Assembly: GCA_024707205.1 (NCBI GenBank)
Contig: JANQAD010000001.1
Location: forward strand, 2,259,979 to 2,323,978
DNA from: Demequina sp.
Lineage (GTDB): Bacteria > Actinomycetota > Actinomycetes > Actinomycetales > Demequinaceae
Reading direction: 5' to 3'
Length of the DNA: 64,000 bases
The position numbers and the translations under genes were made by a program. The notes under the pieces are model-generated. The model made no database searches and was not told the DNA's origin. It saw nothing but the letters and a program-made list of their open reading frames with translations. Positions 2,758 through 63,118 of the stretch are shown one piece after another. Each line of letters opens with the position of its first letter. The first letter of the stretch is position 1.

Positions 2758-3902
2758 GGATCGGCATCGTCTGCCCGTACTCCCTTGACCGCCCAGGCGG
2801 GGTGCAGCTTCACGTCCTCGACCTCGCGGAGGCGCTCATCGCCCGCGGTCACCACGTATCGGTGCTCGCTCCCGCGGGCGAGGACACGGACGTCCCTCCC
2901 TATGTGTTCTCCGCGGGGCGCTCGGTCCCGATCCGCTACAACGGCGCCACCGCGCGCGTGACGTTCGGCATGTGGTCCGCGGCGCGCGTGCGGCTGTGGC
3001 TCGGAGAGGGCGAATTCGACGTCGTCCACCTCCACGAGCCCGGCGCCGCGTCGCTCAGCCTGATTGCGATGTGGGCGCGCGTTGGGCCAACGGTCGCGAC
3101 CTTCCACTCCTCGCACGAGGAGTCGCGCATCATGCGCCTCGCGAAGCCCTGGATCAAGCCCGGCTACGAGGAGCTCGACGCGCGCATCGCGGTGTCGCCG
3201 TCGGCGGCCAACACCATCCGCGAGCACCTGCGCGTAGAGGCCACCCACATCATCCCCAACGGCGTGGACACCACCGCATTCGTCAACGCGGTGCCGCTCT
3301 CGCGCTGGCGCGGGACGGCGGAGGCGCCGACCATCGGCATCCTCGGCAGGATGGATGAGCCGCGCAAGGGACTCGACGACTTCCTCGCGATGATCCCCCT
3401 GGTAAGGACCGAGTTCCCGCACGCCCGATTCCTCGTGGCCGGACGCTTCAGCGACCGCGTGGCCGCTCGCGCGGCCAGGGCGGGGGCTGAGGTCGTCGGC
3501 GAGCTCGACGAGCAGCAGAAGGCGAGCTTCATGAGCTCGATGGACGTGTACTGCGCCCCCAACCTCGGGGGAGAGTCGTTCGGCATCGTGCTCGTGGAGG
3601 CCATGGCCTCCGGCGCGGCCGTCGTCGCGAGCGACCTGACGGCGTTCAAGGACGTGGCCACCGCGAAAGGCGGGGGATACGCGGCGGCCCTGCACCGCGT
3701 CGGCGATGCTGAGGACCTTGCGCGCGCGGTCACCGAGCTGCTCGCGGATCCGGAGGCTCGCACCGCCCTCGCGATCAAGGGGCGCAAGGTCGCCGCCGCC
3801 TTCGACTGGTCCAACGTCGCGCCCCGTGTCGAGGCCACCTATCGCGACGCGATTAGGATGGATGCCGAGTTCCATCCCCACCCACCCAAGGAAGAGTCAT
3901 GA
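2754..3902 (+). CDS. pimA: Phosphatidylinositol mannosyltransferase, GT4 family
   Basis: Adds the first mannose from GDP-mannose to phosphatidylinositol. The 382-residue protein has the GT-B layout: a glycine-rich N-terminal loop ([14 protein letters not shown]) and the C-terminal donor-binding motif [14 protein letters not shown] (E-x7-E). Start ATG 2754 overlaps the acyltransferase stop. Genes for PI phosphate synthase and a PIM acyltransferase directly upstream support this assignment over other GT4 enzymes. The gene ends in an ATGA overlap with pdxS. Confidence 0.88.
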
Positions 3903-5930: not shown

Positions 5931-5998
5931 CCTCGGTTGAGGTAGGTGGGGGGCGAAAAACGGTGCAAGAACAACCGCCACCTACCTCAACCGAGAGG
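5931..5998. repeat. Dispersed palindrome, copy 1 (GGTTGAGGTAG family)
   Basis: Arms CCTCGGTTGAGGTAGGTGG (5931-5949) and CCACCTACCTCAACCGAG pair almost perfectly around a roughly 30-base loop. It shares GGTTGAGGTAG and CTACCTCAACC arms with copies at 21368, 21461, 22571 and 63061. Its loop matches copies 2 and 3 better when read on the minus strand. It could act as a terminator for pdxT, but there is no T tract and the conserved arm sequence points to a repeat family. Confidence 0.85.
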
Positions 5999-19537: not shown

Positions 19538-19573
19538 TGCCCCTAATCTCCCCGCTTGTCTGAAAGGCTTTTC

Positions 19574-21346
19574 GTGCTCCGCACCCATCTCGCAGGTTCC
19601 CTTCGCGCCGCCGACGCTGGCGCCACCGTCACGCTCGCCGGCTGGGTTGGCCGTCGCCGCGATCACGGCGGCGTGGCGTTCATCGATCTGCGCGACGCCT
19701 CGGGATTCGCCCAGGTGGTGCTGCATGAGGAGATCGCGCACGAGCTGCGCACGGAGTACGTGGTCCAGGTGACCGGTGAGGTGCGGCTGCGTCCTGAGGG
19801 TTCCGCGAACCCCAACCTGGCCTCGGGCGAGATCGAGGTCGTGGGCACCCGCGTCGAGATCCTCAACACGTCCGCGCCCACGCCGTTCCCCATCGACGAG
19901 CACGTCAACGTGGGTGAGGAGGCGCGCCTCAAGTACCGCTACCTGGACCTTCGCCGACCCGCGCAGCGTTCGGCGATGGTGCTGCGGTCCCGCGCGAACG
20001 CCGCCGCGCGTCGAGTCCTCGAGCGCCACGACTTCCTCGAGATCGAGACGCCTACGCTGACGCGCTCCACGCCGGAGGGCGCCAGGGACTTCCTGGTGCC
20101 CGCGCGCCTGTCTCCCGGCTCCTGGTACGCGCTGCCGCAGTCCCCGCAGCTGTTCAAGCAGCTGCTCATGGTGGCGGGCATGGAGCGCTACTACCAGATC
20201 GCCCGCTGCTACCGCGATGAGGACTTCCGCGCGGACCGCCAGCCCGAGTTCACGCAGCTCGACATCGAGATGTCGTTCGTGGACCAGGACGACGTCATCG
20301 CGCTCGGCGAGGAGCTCGTGCGTGAGCTGTGGTCGCTCATCGGCGTTGAGGTGGCGCTGCCGATCCCGCGCATCACGTTCGCCGACGCGATGAACCGCTT
20401 CGGCTCCGACAAGCCCGACCTGCGGTTTGGGCTCGAGCTCACGGAGCTCACCTCGTACTTCGCCTCCACGCCGTTCCGGGTCTTCCAGGCGCCGTATGTG
20501 GGCGCCGTGGTCATGCCCGGCGGTGCGTCGCAGCCGCGCAAGACGCTCGACGGCTGGCAGGACTGGGCCAAGCAGCGCGGCGCGCGCGGGCTCGCGTATG
20601 TGCTGGTTGGTGAGGACGGCACGCTCGGCGGCCCCGTCGCCAAGAACCTGTGCGACGCCGAACTCGCGGGCCTCGCGGAGGCCACCGGGGCGTCGGCCGG
20701 CGACTGCATCTTCTTCGCGGCGGGGGAGCGAGAGGCCTCGCAGTCGCTGCTGGGCGCCGCGCGCGGCGAGATTGCGCGGCGTGTGGGGCTCGTTGACGAC
20801 AGCCGGTTCGAGTTCGTGTGGGTCGTTGACGCGCCGCTGTTCAAGCCCGTCAAGTCCGACGACGACGACGTGGCGCTCGGCCACTCCGCGTGGACCGCGG
20901 TGCACCACGCGTTCACATCGCCAAAGCCGGAGTTCCTTGACACGTTCGACACGGACCCCGGCTCGGCGAACGCCTACGCGTACGACATCGTCTGCAACGG
21001 CAACGAGATCGGCGGCGGCTCCATCCGTATTCACCGCCGCGACGTCCAGGAGCGGGTCTTCAAGGTCATGGGCATCGGGCCCGAGGAGGCGCAGGAGAAG
21101 TTCGGCTTCCTGCTCGATGCGTTCCAGTACGGCGCCCCGCCGCACGGCGGCATCGCGCTCGGCTGGGACCGGGTCGTCGCGCTGCTCGCGGGCACGCCGT
21201 CGATCCGCGACGTGATCGCGTTCCCCAAGTCCGGCGGTGGCTACGACGCGCTCACTGACGCGCCCGCGCCCATCACGCCCGAGCAGCGTGCGGAGGCGGG
21301 CGTGGACTTCGTGCCTGAGGCCGAGCCTGCGCCGGCGGAGTCCTAG
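19574..21346 (+). CDS. aspS: Aspartyl-tRNA synthetase
   Basis: Charges tRNA-Asp. The 590-residue bacterial-type enzyme has the N-terminal OB domain ([21 protein letters not shown]), motif 2 ([20 protein letters not shown]), the bacterial GAD insertion, and motif 3 ([16 protein letters not shown]). GTG 19574 ([12 protein letters not shown]) matches usual family N-termini and follows GAAAGG; a TTG at 19556 would add six residues. Confidence 0.95.
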
Positions 21347-21367: not shown

Positions 21368-21423
21368 GGTTGAGGTAGATGGCGGGTGTTTTCGGTGCCC
21401 TGATCACCCGGGATCTACCTCAA
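21368..21423. repeat. Dispersed palindrome, copy 2
   Basis: GGTTGAGGTAGAT and ATCTACCTCAA arms enclose a GC-rich interior that contains a second pairing, GGCGGGTG against CACCCGGG. It is nearly identical to copy 3, which lies 38 bases further on. It starts 21 bases after the aspS stop. Confidence 0.85.
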
Positions 21424-21460
21424 TGTGCAGCGGCGTTGGTGCCCTGCCCGCCAACCCGTT

Positions 21461-21518
21461 GGTTGAGGTAGGTGGCGGGTGTTTTCGGCGCCTGGATCAC
21501 CCGGGATCTACCTCAACC
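21461..21518. repeat. Dispersed palindrome, copy 3
   Basis: GGTTGAGGTAGGT and ATCTACCTCAACC arms; interior GTTTTCGGCGCCTGGATCA differs from copy 2 at only a few bases. Its right arm, read on the minus strand as GGTTGAGG, supplies the TGA stop of the DUF559-like gene. Confidence 0.85.
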
Positions 21519-22460
21519 GTCGGTGGGGGGCTCGTCCGACTTGAGGTCCCTGAGCCGCGCATCCCGCACGCGTTCGTACATGTTCCGGCACCAGGCCGCC
21601 CTCTCGAACACGGCGAAGAAGTCCAATCGCAGTGTCGCGATGCCTTCGGTCGAGAGCTCGGCGTCGCGCTCAATATCCGCCACACGGTCCTTGACCTCTC
21701 CGTGAAATGTGGCGCTATCCAGCTCAATGTCCAGACGTGCATGCGGGTCATAGATGTCCATGACGCGGTCCTTGTCGCACGCCGTGACTGGTTCATTCCA
21801 ACGCAGCTCCGGATACTGTGCCTCTGGGAACACCACCGTCTTGGCCCGGTGCTCAAGGAAGCTGGTGACCCCGCCAATGAGCACCTGGAGCAGTTCCAGC
21901 AAGTCTTGCTTCCGTCGCACCCTGCCAGTGGCCGCCACCGCTGCGGCCACGTCCGCGCTCGACACGTGCTTGCGGCCTATCGCTCGCACAACTAGGCCCA
22001 CGGCCGTGTCGCCGCGGGTCTCGTTCCACGCGTGCACCACGGCATGTGCGAGCGGTACGACTGGAATTCCGCGCACACGCATGGGAGCAGGACCATTTCT
22101 GGGTCGGTATGGGCGCAGCCACCGGGGAGTTGAGCGGTGGAGCGGATTGCGGAGCATCACCATCGTGACGCGCGGTGCGTCCTCCACCACGCCCCACACC
22201 CACAGTGCGGCAACGCCGGTGAGTGCCCCTCCGGCAGTATCGATCCACAGTGCCGCGGCGCGCAGGCGCGCCTCGGAGTCGTGGGCGAAGTTGCGGTGCA
22301 CGACGACCTGCGGGAGCAGCCGTTGCAGCGAGCCATTGCGCATGCATTTCTTGACAGCGTGCGCCGAGAAAGCCGACTCGGCGTCCTTTCGCCGGACAGG
22401 CAACCCCGTCGCGAGTAGTTGGCGCGCCAGGTCCCGGTGTCGTCGACTGCGCTTGCTCAC
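21513..22460 (-). CDS. AbiEi-like/DUF559 (Vsr-like endonuclease fold) protein
   Basis: A protein of about 315 residues. The N-terminal half looks like AbiEi (RDLARQLLATGLPVRRKDAE; GALTGVAALWVWG). The C-terminal part has the DUF559 layout related to very-short-patch endonucleases: DIYDPHARLDIELDSATFHG, then DIERDAELSTEGIATLRLDF, offering acidic residues for a PD-(D/E)xK-like site. I chose GTG 22460 (VSKRSRRHRDLAR); longer upstream frame looks non-coding. Palindromes lie at both ends (copies 2 and 3 downstream, copy 4 upstream). Biological role is unknown; nuclease activity is inferred from fold only. Confidence 0.65.
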   Translation of the reverse strand: MSKRSRRHRDLARQLLATGLPVRRKDAESAFSAHAVKKCMRNGSLQRLLPQVVVHRNFAHDSEARLRAAALWIDTAGGALTGVAALWVWGVVEDAPRVTMVMLRNPLHRSTPRWLRPYRPRNGPAPMRVRGIPVVPLAHAVVHAWNETRGDTAVGLVVRAIGRKHVSSADVAAAVAATGRVRRKQDLLELLQVLIGGVTSFLEHRAKTVVFPEAQYPELRWNEPVTACDKDRVMDIYDPHARLDIELDSATFHGEVKDRVADIERDAELSTEGIATLRLDFFAVFERAAWCRNMYERVRDARLRDLKSDEPPTDG

Positions 22461-22570
22461 GGGAACTGAAGGTAGGGAAGTGGCGCGCGGAGCGTCGGGC
22501 CGGGGTGTGTGGTCTGTGGAGAACGCGCCGCAGCCACCGACCTGGGGACGCGGATCACGCCTCACTCTTG

Positions 22571-22627
22571 GTTGAGGTAGATCCCAGGCGTTCCGGGCGG
22601 CAGAATCGCCCCGCATCTACCTCAACG
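22571..22627. repeat. Dispersed palindrome, copy 4
   Basis: GGTTGAGGTAGAT (22571) and CATCTACCTCAAC arms with a divergent interior (GGCGTTCCGGGCGGCAGAA). It lies between the DUF559-like gene and rarA, 22 bases before the rarA start. Confidence 0.8.
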
Positions 22628-22649: not shown

Positions 22650-23975
22650 GTGGACCTCTTCGACGCGCAGGCGACCTCCGCCACCGGCGTGCCGGAGATC
22701 GCGGCCAACGCCCCGCTCGCGGTGCGCATGCGCCCCCGTTCGCTCGCAGAGGTCGTGGGTCAGGAGCACCTGCTCGCGGAAGGCTCGCCGCTCGTCCGCC
22801 TCATCGGGCCCGACGCTGCCGCGGCTTCGATCATCCTCTGGGGTCCTCCCGGCACGGGAAAGACGACACTCGCGTACCTCGTCGCTGGCAACCGCCGCTT
22901 CGTGGAACTCAGCGCCGTCACGGCGGGCATCAAGGATGTGCGCGCGGTCATCGATGACTCCAAGCGCCGCGTGGCGATGGGGGAGCGGGAGACCGTCCTG
23001 TTCATCGACGAGATCCACCGCTTCACGCGAACCCAGCAGGATGCGCTGCTGCCGGCCGTGGAGAACCGCTGGGTCACCCTGATCGGCGCCACCACGGAGA
23101 ACCCAAGCTTCTCGGTTGTTGGCCCGCTACTCAGCCGCAGCCTCCTGCTCACCCTCAAGCCGCTTGCCGCAGATGCGGTGAAGTCCCTGGTAGACCGCGC
23201 TATAGAAGATGAGCGCGGCCTTGCGGGCGCCGTCGAGGTGGAGCCTGAAGCGCGGGAGCACATCGTCCGCGTTGCCGGCGCCGACGCACGCAAGGCACTC
23301 ACGCTCCTCGAGGCCATCGGGGACGCCGCGGGCCCGGGCGGCACCGTCACCACGGAGCTCGCCGAGCGCGCGATGGACGCCGCCCTCGTCGCCTACGACA
23401 AGTCCGGCGACCAGCATTACGACGTCATCAGCGCGTTCATCAAGTCGGTGCGCGGTTCCGACGTCGATGCGAGTCTCCACTACCTGGCACGCATGGTGGT
23501 CGCGGGGGAGGACCCGCGCTTCATCGCAAGGCGCCTCGTCGTCCTCGCCGCGGAGGACGTGGGCCTCGCGGACCCGCAGGGCCTGGTCGTGGCGCAGGCC
23601 GCAGCCGACGCCGTGAGCTTCATCGGCATGCCGGAGGGCCGCATCGTGCTCGCGGAGGCCACCGCCTACCTCGCCCTCGCTCCCAAGTCCAACCGCAGCT
23701 ACCTCGCGATCGATCGAGCCATCGCGGACGTTCGCGCCGGCCGCGCAGGCACTGTTCCGGAGCACCTCAGGGACGCGCACTACGCGGGCGCAGGGCGGCT
23801 TGGCCACGGCAAGGGCTATCAGTACGCCCACGACGCGGACCACGGCGTCGCCGCCCAGCAGTACCTCCCCGACTCAGTCGCGGAAGCCACCTACTACGAA
23901 CCCACGGACCATGGCTTCGAGCGAACCCTGGGAGAGCGTCGGGCCCAAATACGCAAGCTGCTGGGCCGCGACTAG
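22650..23975 (+). CDS. rarA: Replication-associated recombination protein A (RarA/MgsA AAA+ ATPase)
   Basis: Acts at stalled replication forks. The 441-residue protein shows RPRSLAEVVGQEHLL, Walker A WGPPGTGKTTLAYL, Walker B LFIDEIHRFTRTQQD, the sensor region LIGATTENPSFSV, and the C-terminal tetramerisation part with DQHYDVISAFIKSVRGSD and YLARMVVAGEDPRFIARRL. Start is GTG 22650. Often a neighbour of rpsD-alaS in actinobacteria, as here. Confidence 0.95.
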   Translation: MDLFDAQATSATGVPEIAANAPLAVRMRPRSLAEVVGQEHLLAEGSPLVRLIGPDAAAASIILWGPPGTGKTTLAYLVAGNRRFVELSAVTAGIKDVRAVIDDSKRRVAMGERETVLFIDEIHRFTRTQQDALLPAVENRWVTLIGATTENPSFSVVGPLLSRSLLLTLKPLAADAVKSLVDRAIEDERGLAGAVEVEPEAREHIVRVAGADARKALTLLEAIGDAAGPGGTVTTELAERAMDAALVAYDKSGDQHYDVISAFIKSVRGSDVDASLHYLARMVVAGEDPRFIARRLVVLAAEDVGLADPQGLVVAQAAADAVSFIGMPEGRIVLAEATAYLALAPKSNRSYLAIDRAIADVRAGRAGTVPEHLRDAHYAGAGRLGHGKGYQYAHDADHGVAAQQYLPDSVAEATYYEPTDHGFERTLGERRAQIRKLLGRD

Positions 23976-63060: not shown

Positions 63061-63118
63061 GGTTGAGGTAGATGCGGGGTGAATCTGAAGACGTTTTCGA
63101 CCGCTACCTACCTCAACC
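63061..63118. repeat. Dispersed palindrome, copy 5
   Basis: GGTTGAGGTAGAT and CTACCTACCTCAACC arms with interior GAATCTGAAGACGTTTTCGA, unlike the interiors of copies 2-4. It lies between gmk and rpoZ, both on the plus strand. Confidence 0.82.

Follow-up and report, generated by a model that had tools for sequence, protein, structure and literature searches.

Excerpts of two reports (PMC2817692, PMC3116915) describe RAYTs as single-copy, co-evolving genes that lie between two REPs in inverted orientation, frequently at the stop codon itself, and describe REPs as occurring in inverted doublets. In an excerpt of another report, the AbiEi proteins of type IV toxin–antitoxin (TA) systems are said to autoregulate by binding inverted repeats (PMC7319586). 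Here, we describe a Demequina gene whose product is predicted to join an AbiEi fold to a Vsr/EDxHD nuclease fold, and which lies between inverted copies of a repeat of its own. Genes of this family in Demequina and in related bacteria of soil and sea frequently lie between such repeats, and the association between the nuclease genes and their repeats is real and gene-specific.

Results

The AbiEi-Vsr gene and its palindromes

The window is the whole 64,000-bp stretch of Demequina DNA that was analyzed. The features relevant to this work are as follows.

19556..21346, plus strand: aspS, left neighbor (class II D/K/N tRNA synthetase with GAD domain)
21370..21423, no strand: palindrome copy, distal downstream of the AbiEi-Vsr gene, 54 bp
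21463..21516, no strand: palindrome copy, proximal downstream, holding the gene's stop codon (TCA on the plus strand at 21513-21515)
21513..22460, minus strand: AbiEi-Vsr (DUF559/REase_MTES_1575-like) gene, 315 aa from GTG 22460
22572..22625, no strand: palindrome copy upstream of the AbiEi-Vsr gene, between the gene and rarA, 54 bp
22650..23975, plus strand: rarA/mgsA-type AAA ATPase, right neighbor
5937..5990, no strand: solo copy of the same palindrome (family A), dispersed, between co-oriented predicted genes
63063..63116, no strand: family A solo copy, dispersed, 4 bp past a predicted gene end

Three copies of the palindrome, which has the architecture TTGAGGTAG-N36-CTACCTCAA (54 bp), bracket the minus-strand gene at 21513-22460. 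An earlier note on this DNA had placed two of them downstream and one upstream, and its coordinates hold, as does its claim that the gene's stop codon lies within a palindrome: the TGA (21515-21513) falls within GGTTGAGG of the middle copy. The arm-and-spacer pattern was matched 6 times over both strands of the window (4 distinct places), against 0.00 matches expected from 100 dinucleotide shuffles. An alternative, longer ORF would begin at ATG 22616, inside the upstream palindrome. Because homologs are mostly about 305 aa long, which argues against the longer ORF, GTG 22460 is our preferred predicted start.

The predicted structure of the window protein (AlphaFold, with 25 aligned family members; pLDDT 94.3) has two parts. 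For residues 6-195 the structural match is an AbiEi antitoxin, 6y8q_A (rmsd 5.8 across 182 residues, Z 12.1; Foldseek E 2.7e-5), a module that combines a winged helix with a nucleotidyltransferase-like fold. Residues 198-304 resemble NGO0050 (Z 13.1, 92 residues), the homing endonuclease I-Bth0305I (Z 12.4, 96 residues), and Vsr (1cw0; Z 10.2, 100 residues); TnsA is a weak structural match (Z 6.8). The L017 and L041 proteins were dropped, and the alignment used 25 of 34 usable proteins, of which the 24 others are 27-33% identical to the window protein, and its ten invariant columns include D235, E246, D248, H253, D262, R265, and G273. Modeling thus presents the protein as an N-terminal AbiEi-antitoxin fold followed by a C-terminal Vsr/EDxHD nuclease fold with invariant catalytic-type residues. 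The DUF559/Vsr label given previously was right for the family: five of the seven members scanned pass the Pfam DUF559 cut-off (20.6 bits) and none of the seven passes that of REase_MTES_1575 (38.2 bits), the window protein itself falling below both (REase_MTES_1575, sub-threshold E 0.0068).

These folds bear on whether the gene belongs to a system for phage defense or self/non-self discrimination, with the genomic repeats as the mark of self. PADLOC AbiEi profiles match the N-terminal half in 4 of 5 scanned proteins, among them the window protein (E 1.7e-5) but not L031, and Vsr-like REase domains are present in conflict proteins according to an excerpt of PMC3710099. However, the immediate neighbors of the window gene are aspS and rarA, neither an AbiEii nucleotidyltransferase toxin gene nor a methylase, and we regard this explanation as very improbable.

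Private repeats beside other family members

Each of 44 Demequina genomes was found to hold 1 to 7 members of the family. The genome of the window holds 7, an eighth search row (E 0.019) not being a gene, and identity to the window gene does not exceed 35% in any of the six paralogs. Own repeats flank L012, L015, and L017 on both sides, L014 has a palindrome on one side only, and no repeats were found at L013 and L016. At least four of the seven own-genome members thus have a private repeat, and all four families are dispersed. Unlike other paralogs, L013 sits at the conserved valS-clpX site yet is without a detectable repeat. Several family members, including L016, have one internal stop, which suggests decay of some paralogs.

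To compare the 500-bp flanks of each gene, a first set of 36 loci was used, consisting of the 7 own loci and the best locus from 29 of the 43 other Demequina genomes searched. Random pairing of loci was discarded as a control because orthologous loci match each other, and 216 same-locus controls (maximum 20.0) were used instead. A flank repeat scoring above all controls was found at 25 of the 36 loci (3/7 own, 22/29 others), in inverted orientation in all 25; some weaker passes (L022, L036, and L048) reflect short or C-rich matches. The test was failed by 11 loci. The window locus scored 16.0, below the control maximum, because the test boundary cut the proximal palindrome. The earlier note had envisaged the same palindrome at other DUF559 genes. 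Bracketing of such genes stood, with 25/36 above controls, but each gene has its own repeat, and the idea of one palindrome beside all DUF559 genes was rejected.

A second set, from named genomes, comprised 61 loci, of which 60 were tested with 300 controls; its Demequina part overlaps the first set. Scores above the 99% control level (19.0) were obtained for 11/22 Demequina and 18/38 other loci, and scores above the control maximum (22.0) for 9/22 and 13/38, respectively. The repeats were inverted in 11/11 Demequina loci and 13/18 others, where some direct scores come from symmetric palindromes. Rows for L018 (not a gene), L019 (a duplicate of L011), and L161 (without left flank) were dropped. 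At L164, a Dehalococcoidia DUF559 locus (3244-3441), long direct repeats occur on both sides and are probably unrelated.

Palindromes of 45-72 bp are concentrated beside the gene in the 38 non-Demequina loci, at 1.99/kb (38 in 19,059 bp) versus 0.106/kb elsewhere (19 in 180,058 bp). They occur on both sides in 10/38 loci, on one side in 17/38, and on neither in 11/38, and similar brackets were found in Geodermatophilaceae. Where a downstream palindrome is present, it begins 1-26 bp before the gene end and touches the stop codon in 14 of 18 non-Demequina loci. A stop codon within a palindrome is consequently a recurrent trait of family loci, beyond the window gene, and some family members are without a detectable repeat.

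Co-variation of protein and repeat was assessed for 24 of the 36 loci. Repeat similarity was correlated with protein identity (Spearman 0.222; a value this high arose in 2 of 2000 permutations). The 6 pairs with a repeat score of at least 20 all have proteins at least 58% identical, and none of 257 pairs under 50% identity reaches that score, while 13 of the 19 pairs whose proteins share at least 50% identity score below 20. As judged from sequence comparison, similar repeats appear to need similar proteins, and similar proteins often have different repeats. Shared genome ancestry contributes to the correlation.

Dispersal of the repeats

In the genome of the window (one contig, 2.54 Mb), family A has exactly ten copies, with 18/18 arm bases intact in all, and no imperfect copies with 1-3 arm mismatches were found in the whole genome. 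Among nine distinct copies, the arms are 100% identical and the 36-bp interior 57.7%. At up to 2 mismatches, family A was found in none of 58 relatives (36 of the same genus, 22 of the same order). Two identical copies (L001, L002) lie in an 83-bp tandem duplication that includes flank (G000:C1:610553-610689), and one copy (L223 2030-2083) lies inside a predicted gene (L223 1803-3596), where 54 bp would be a possible in-frame length. When the flanks of the ten copies were searched by eye for target-site duplications, palindromic extension alone was visible, and no precise empty site or target-site duplication was found for any dispersed copy. A plasmid search with the window locus gave zero matches, and a first contig scan with the window protein retrieved no relatives.

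The L012, L015, and L017 families also have further copies in this genome (11, 6, and 8 places examined, respectively), and 6 of the 8 places of the L017 family (family D) are inverted pairs. For 16 other genomes, 28 candidates per genome were scored, and the match counts, which include both strands and related families, range from 3 to 71, with 6 or more in 13 genomes and under 6 in 3. Among the matches listed, a repeat is nearly confined to the genome that carries its gene or a close relative of that gene, apart from one row each in G004 and G027 that matches another family. With one repeat as the only query, G036 had 50 matches, G008 had 54, and G009 had 1. G009 was dropped as a close relative of G036 for empty-site comparison, since the 96% match spans 392 bp only. 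Six units of the L039 family in G036 are overlapping palindromes, and of the 11 neighbor pairs less than 3 kb apart in that genome, 8 are (+,-), including the gene's own, 2 are (+,+), and 1 is (-,+). Family A is symmetric, so the orientation of its two tandem pairs cannot be judged.

Dispersal in Blastococcus is slight: the counts of places for the L132 repeat are 4 (G066), 3 (G067), and 2 (G068), with no match in G069, and the two places in G068, 1 kb apart, are probably the gene's own flanks.

Some repeat pairs stand around other genes. Of six long pairs, the four that were read (L226 and L230 were left out) have other genes inside. The (+,-) pairs at L225, L227, L228, and L229 (G021, G036, G004) bracket single non-nuclease genes, namely, two for GNAT acetyltransferases, one for a DUF4349 protein, and one lipoprotein-like, three being identified by Pfam. 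DUF559 remnants between repeat pairs 0.7-2.4 kb apart were considered and set aside, as tblastn gave no match at E 1e-4 in 40 fetched stretches.

The gene context of 35 own-genome places was determined with a home-made gene finder, after two short BLAST places (1667683, 112119) were dropped. Twelve places lie between convergent genes, 16 between co-oriented genes, 2 between divergent genes, and 5 inside predicted genes. By hand count, a predicted 3' end is at most 30 bp away for 21 of the 30 intergenic places.

Site geometry and folding

The geometry of the repeats was studied in 28 hand-picked units. Fourteen contain a direct match scoring at least 8.5, with the cores spaced 41-42 bp apart in 10 of the 14; the remaining four are the palindromes C, L031, and L152, plus L020 (22 bp). 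Eleven of the 28 units are full-length palindromes, including L117, which also has a weaker 41-bp direct match, and 7 are mixed or unclear. As a control, 3000 random 66-mers were drawn from such loci; 107 had 41-42 as their best offset, and among the 222 with a score of at least 8.5 the figure was 19. The repeat is accordingly best described from its sequence as a putative bipartite site, either a palindrome of about 54-62 bp or two direct cores 41-42 bp apart, and we infer two predicted protein-bound cores about four helical turns apart. A GTAG motif is found in family A and a few others and is missing from some of the listed units.

Folding is strong in the 11 full palindromes (z -5.6 to -10.5). 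In contrast, most direct-core units fold no better than shuffles (z -0.6 to +1.7; D, L040, L028, L034, L043, L045, L026, L121, L110, and the weaker L024), L027 being the exception (z -3.1). The hairpin is not the feature shared by the repeats, because direct-core units mostly fold no better than shuffles. This matters for the idea that the repeats act as terminator hairpins, or as other RNA structures close to 3' ends, with an incidental link to the gene. The strong folding of the full palindromes and the 21/30 intergenic places near a predicted 3' end favor such an explanation, but it does not account for the direct-core units, for repeats that also lie 5' of the gene, or for repeats that are gene-specific and co-vary with the protein. 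We consider it extremely improbable.

Inversion and exchange at the valS/clpX site

In 19 Demequina loci (L105-L123), the gene lies between convergent valS and clpX (L108 shows the clpX side only), and the same site holds the gene in 17 of 39 non-Demequina loci, all from Geodermatophilaceae. That two families of Actinomycetota share this site points to an old gene-repeat association. Gene orientation is mixed, at 11/8 in Demequina and 10/7 in the Geodermatophilaceae loci. For the 19 loci, the flank tree implies 6 orientation changes, 3 of which are forced by well-supported branches (shuffled mean 6.4), and the gene tree implies 3, of which 1 is forced. Across 36 rows, the gene tree implies 5 changes (4 forced by supported branches) and the ClpX tree 10 (6 forced). 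The view that all orientation differences are inversions was corrected. Orientation clusters on the 19-row gene tree (3 changes), and therefore exchange between species contributes.

For example, L106 and L107 are 95.8% identical in the clpX-side flanks and 65.7% identical in their genes, with opposite gene orientation, different repeats, and the break at the repeats; in the control pair L107/L108, the flanks are 96.2% and the genes 96.5% identical. The left and right repeats also resemble each other within a locus, with a mean match of 32.1 (16 loci) versus 12.2 between species (240 comparisons), and the own right repeat is the best partner of the left in 10 of 16 loci; L108, L111, and L118 were left out of this comparison of 16 of the 19 loci. 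Alignments and trees indicate that cassettes at valS/clpX have undergone inversion as well as exchange between species. Both could result from RecA action on the repeats or flanks, and the nuclease would not be required. A flavin oxidoreductase gene and a divergent TetR regulator gene adjoin the AbiEi-Vsr gene in three loci (L107 3975-5755, L111 1115-2889, L112 2849-4655) and are inside the repeats in L107, where they were identified by Pfam, and L112.

The aspS-rarA junction was compared in 29 of the 42 relatives with a match, by way of their RarA loci. In 4 of the 29, aspS is at most 1.5 kb from rarA (intergenic lengths 125, 125, 284, and 266 bp), and none of these four has an AbiEi-Vsr gene at the junction. 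One gene-less junction, L185 in G021 (D. pelophila; G021 carries a gene found in that species with a 100% match), holds a solo palindrome with the family A core GGTAGATC...GATCTACC and spacing. In the fetched sequence, 1.06 Mb counting overlapping loci, nothing else outside family A matches this pattern.

Several of these observations could be explained by a selfish homing-type gene, with the EDxHD nuclease cutting unoccupied sites, the repeat-gene-repeat cassette being copied in, and the scattered repeats being old footprints or targets. The C-terminal fold is closest to NGO0050 and I-Bth0305I, cassettes are replaced with breakpoints at repeats, and the solo palindrome of D. pelophila stands where a gene is lacking. 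However, the own genome has no near-identical second copy, only six paralogs of at most 35% identity, and the presence of the gene at valS/clpX in Demequina and in 17/39 other loci (Geodermatophilaceae) suggests long residence. We consider this explanation decidedly unlikely.

Another explanation is a domesticated regulator or chromosome organizer, in which the protein would bind dispersed sites kept by host selection and the nuclease would be vestigial or repair-related. This is in line with the autoregulation of AbiEi proteins reported in the excerpt of PMC7319586 and with the perfect arms of all family A copies, none of which is decayed. In addition, 30 of the 35 own-genome places are intergenic, and for the 16 of these between co-oriented genes an operator is possible. 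However, only 2 of the 35 places are between divergent genes, and 12 are at convergent junctions, where no operator would be expected; family A is restricted to its species (0/58 relatives at up to 2 mismatches); cassettes are exchanged between species; and the catalytic-type residues are invariant in 25 proteins. On balance, a domesticated role appears unlikely.

Discussion

We lean, at slightly better than even confidence, toward a REPIN/RAYT-like partnership driven by an AbiEi-Vsr nuclease acting on double-stranded bipartite sites, in which binding, cutting, and copying are inferred. The AbiEi-Vsr protein would recognize its own bipartite site of about 58 bp as double-stranded DNA, by contacts with two cores that share a face of the helix. 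These sites bracket the gene in inverted orientation, frequently with one across the stop codon, and other copies are spread between genes, mostly shortly after 3' ends. The nuclease may nick or cut at the repeat, and repair of the break may then copy the repeat, and occasionally the whole cassette, to new places. Alternatively, host selection, and not spreading, might account for the persistence of repeat copies.

The RAYT/REP-like arrangement with a different enzyme that the earlier note had suggested draws support from bracketing, dispersal, and co-variation, with binding, cutting, and mobilization as its putative steps. The same note had named a contrary outcome, in which DUF559 genes at other places would be free of palindromes and the palindromes unconnected with such genes; what was found instead is bracketing at 25/36 loci, dispersal in the own genome, and repeat relatedness that follows protein relatedness. 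A broader proposal is that the AbiEi-Vsr "repeatase" represents a new class of DNA mobilization, one that spreads, homogenizes, and inverts the bipartite double-stranded sites belonging to it throughout Actinomycetota, and that it evolved separately from the HUH-based REPIN/RAYT system and works on another DNA substrate. This we hold tentatively, at a little short of an even chance.

If the partnership is true, the solo AbiEi/DUF559-type genes of these Actinomycetota gain a partner and a testable role, and the REPIN/RAYT way of life, with one enzyme gene and private repeats, arose at least twice with unrelated enzymes. Why enzyme-repeat pairs persist would also become testable, with a plain double-stranded bipartite motif that is directly assayable. 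No prior description of a DUF559-repeat partnership was found by title or abstract start in the open-access literature, and the AbiEi-Vsr enzyme-and-repeat partnership looks undescribed.

As in insertion sequences with MITEs, inverted terminal repeats surround a nuclease gene, and there are short inverted doublets and pairs around other genes; in contrast, the own genome has no near-identical second enzyme gene, no target-site duplication was seen by eye, and the AbiEi-Vsr enzyme is unlike known transposases (TnsA weakly, Z 6.8). AbiE type IV TA systems share the AbiEi fold, present here in the N-terminal two thirds of the protein, and AbiEi binds inverted repeats (PMC7319586, excerpt), whereas the present family has a fused nuclease, no adjoining AbiEii partner gene, and dispersed sites. 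EDxHD homing endonucleases and Vsr have the same catalytic domain fold (I-Bth0305I, Vsr 1cw0) and conserved acidic and His residues, whereas the AbiEi-Vsr gene is free-standing between host genes with its own inverted repeats.

The REPIN/RAYT system is similar in several respects. The gene lies between two inverted copies of its own repeat, which is often at the stop codon; the repeats are dispersed between genes and form inverted doublets (family D, 6/8; L039 family, 8/11); and each repeat family has one distinct gene, with co-divergence. An REP driven by a RAYT was rejected: a profile search for the Y1 transposase (PF01797) at E <= 0.001 gave no match in 44 Demequina genomes, including the own genome, while the control search had matches in 5 of 14 genomes. 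The two systems differ in that an AbiEi and Vsr/EDxHD nuclease takes the place of the HUH Y1 transposase of RAYTs, many AbiEi-Vsr sites are direct bipartite cores without a marked hairpin, and the GTAG tag is not universal.
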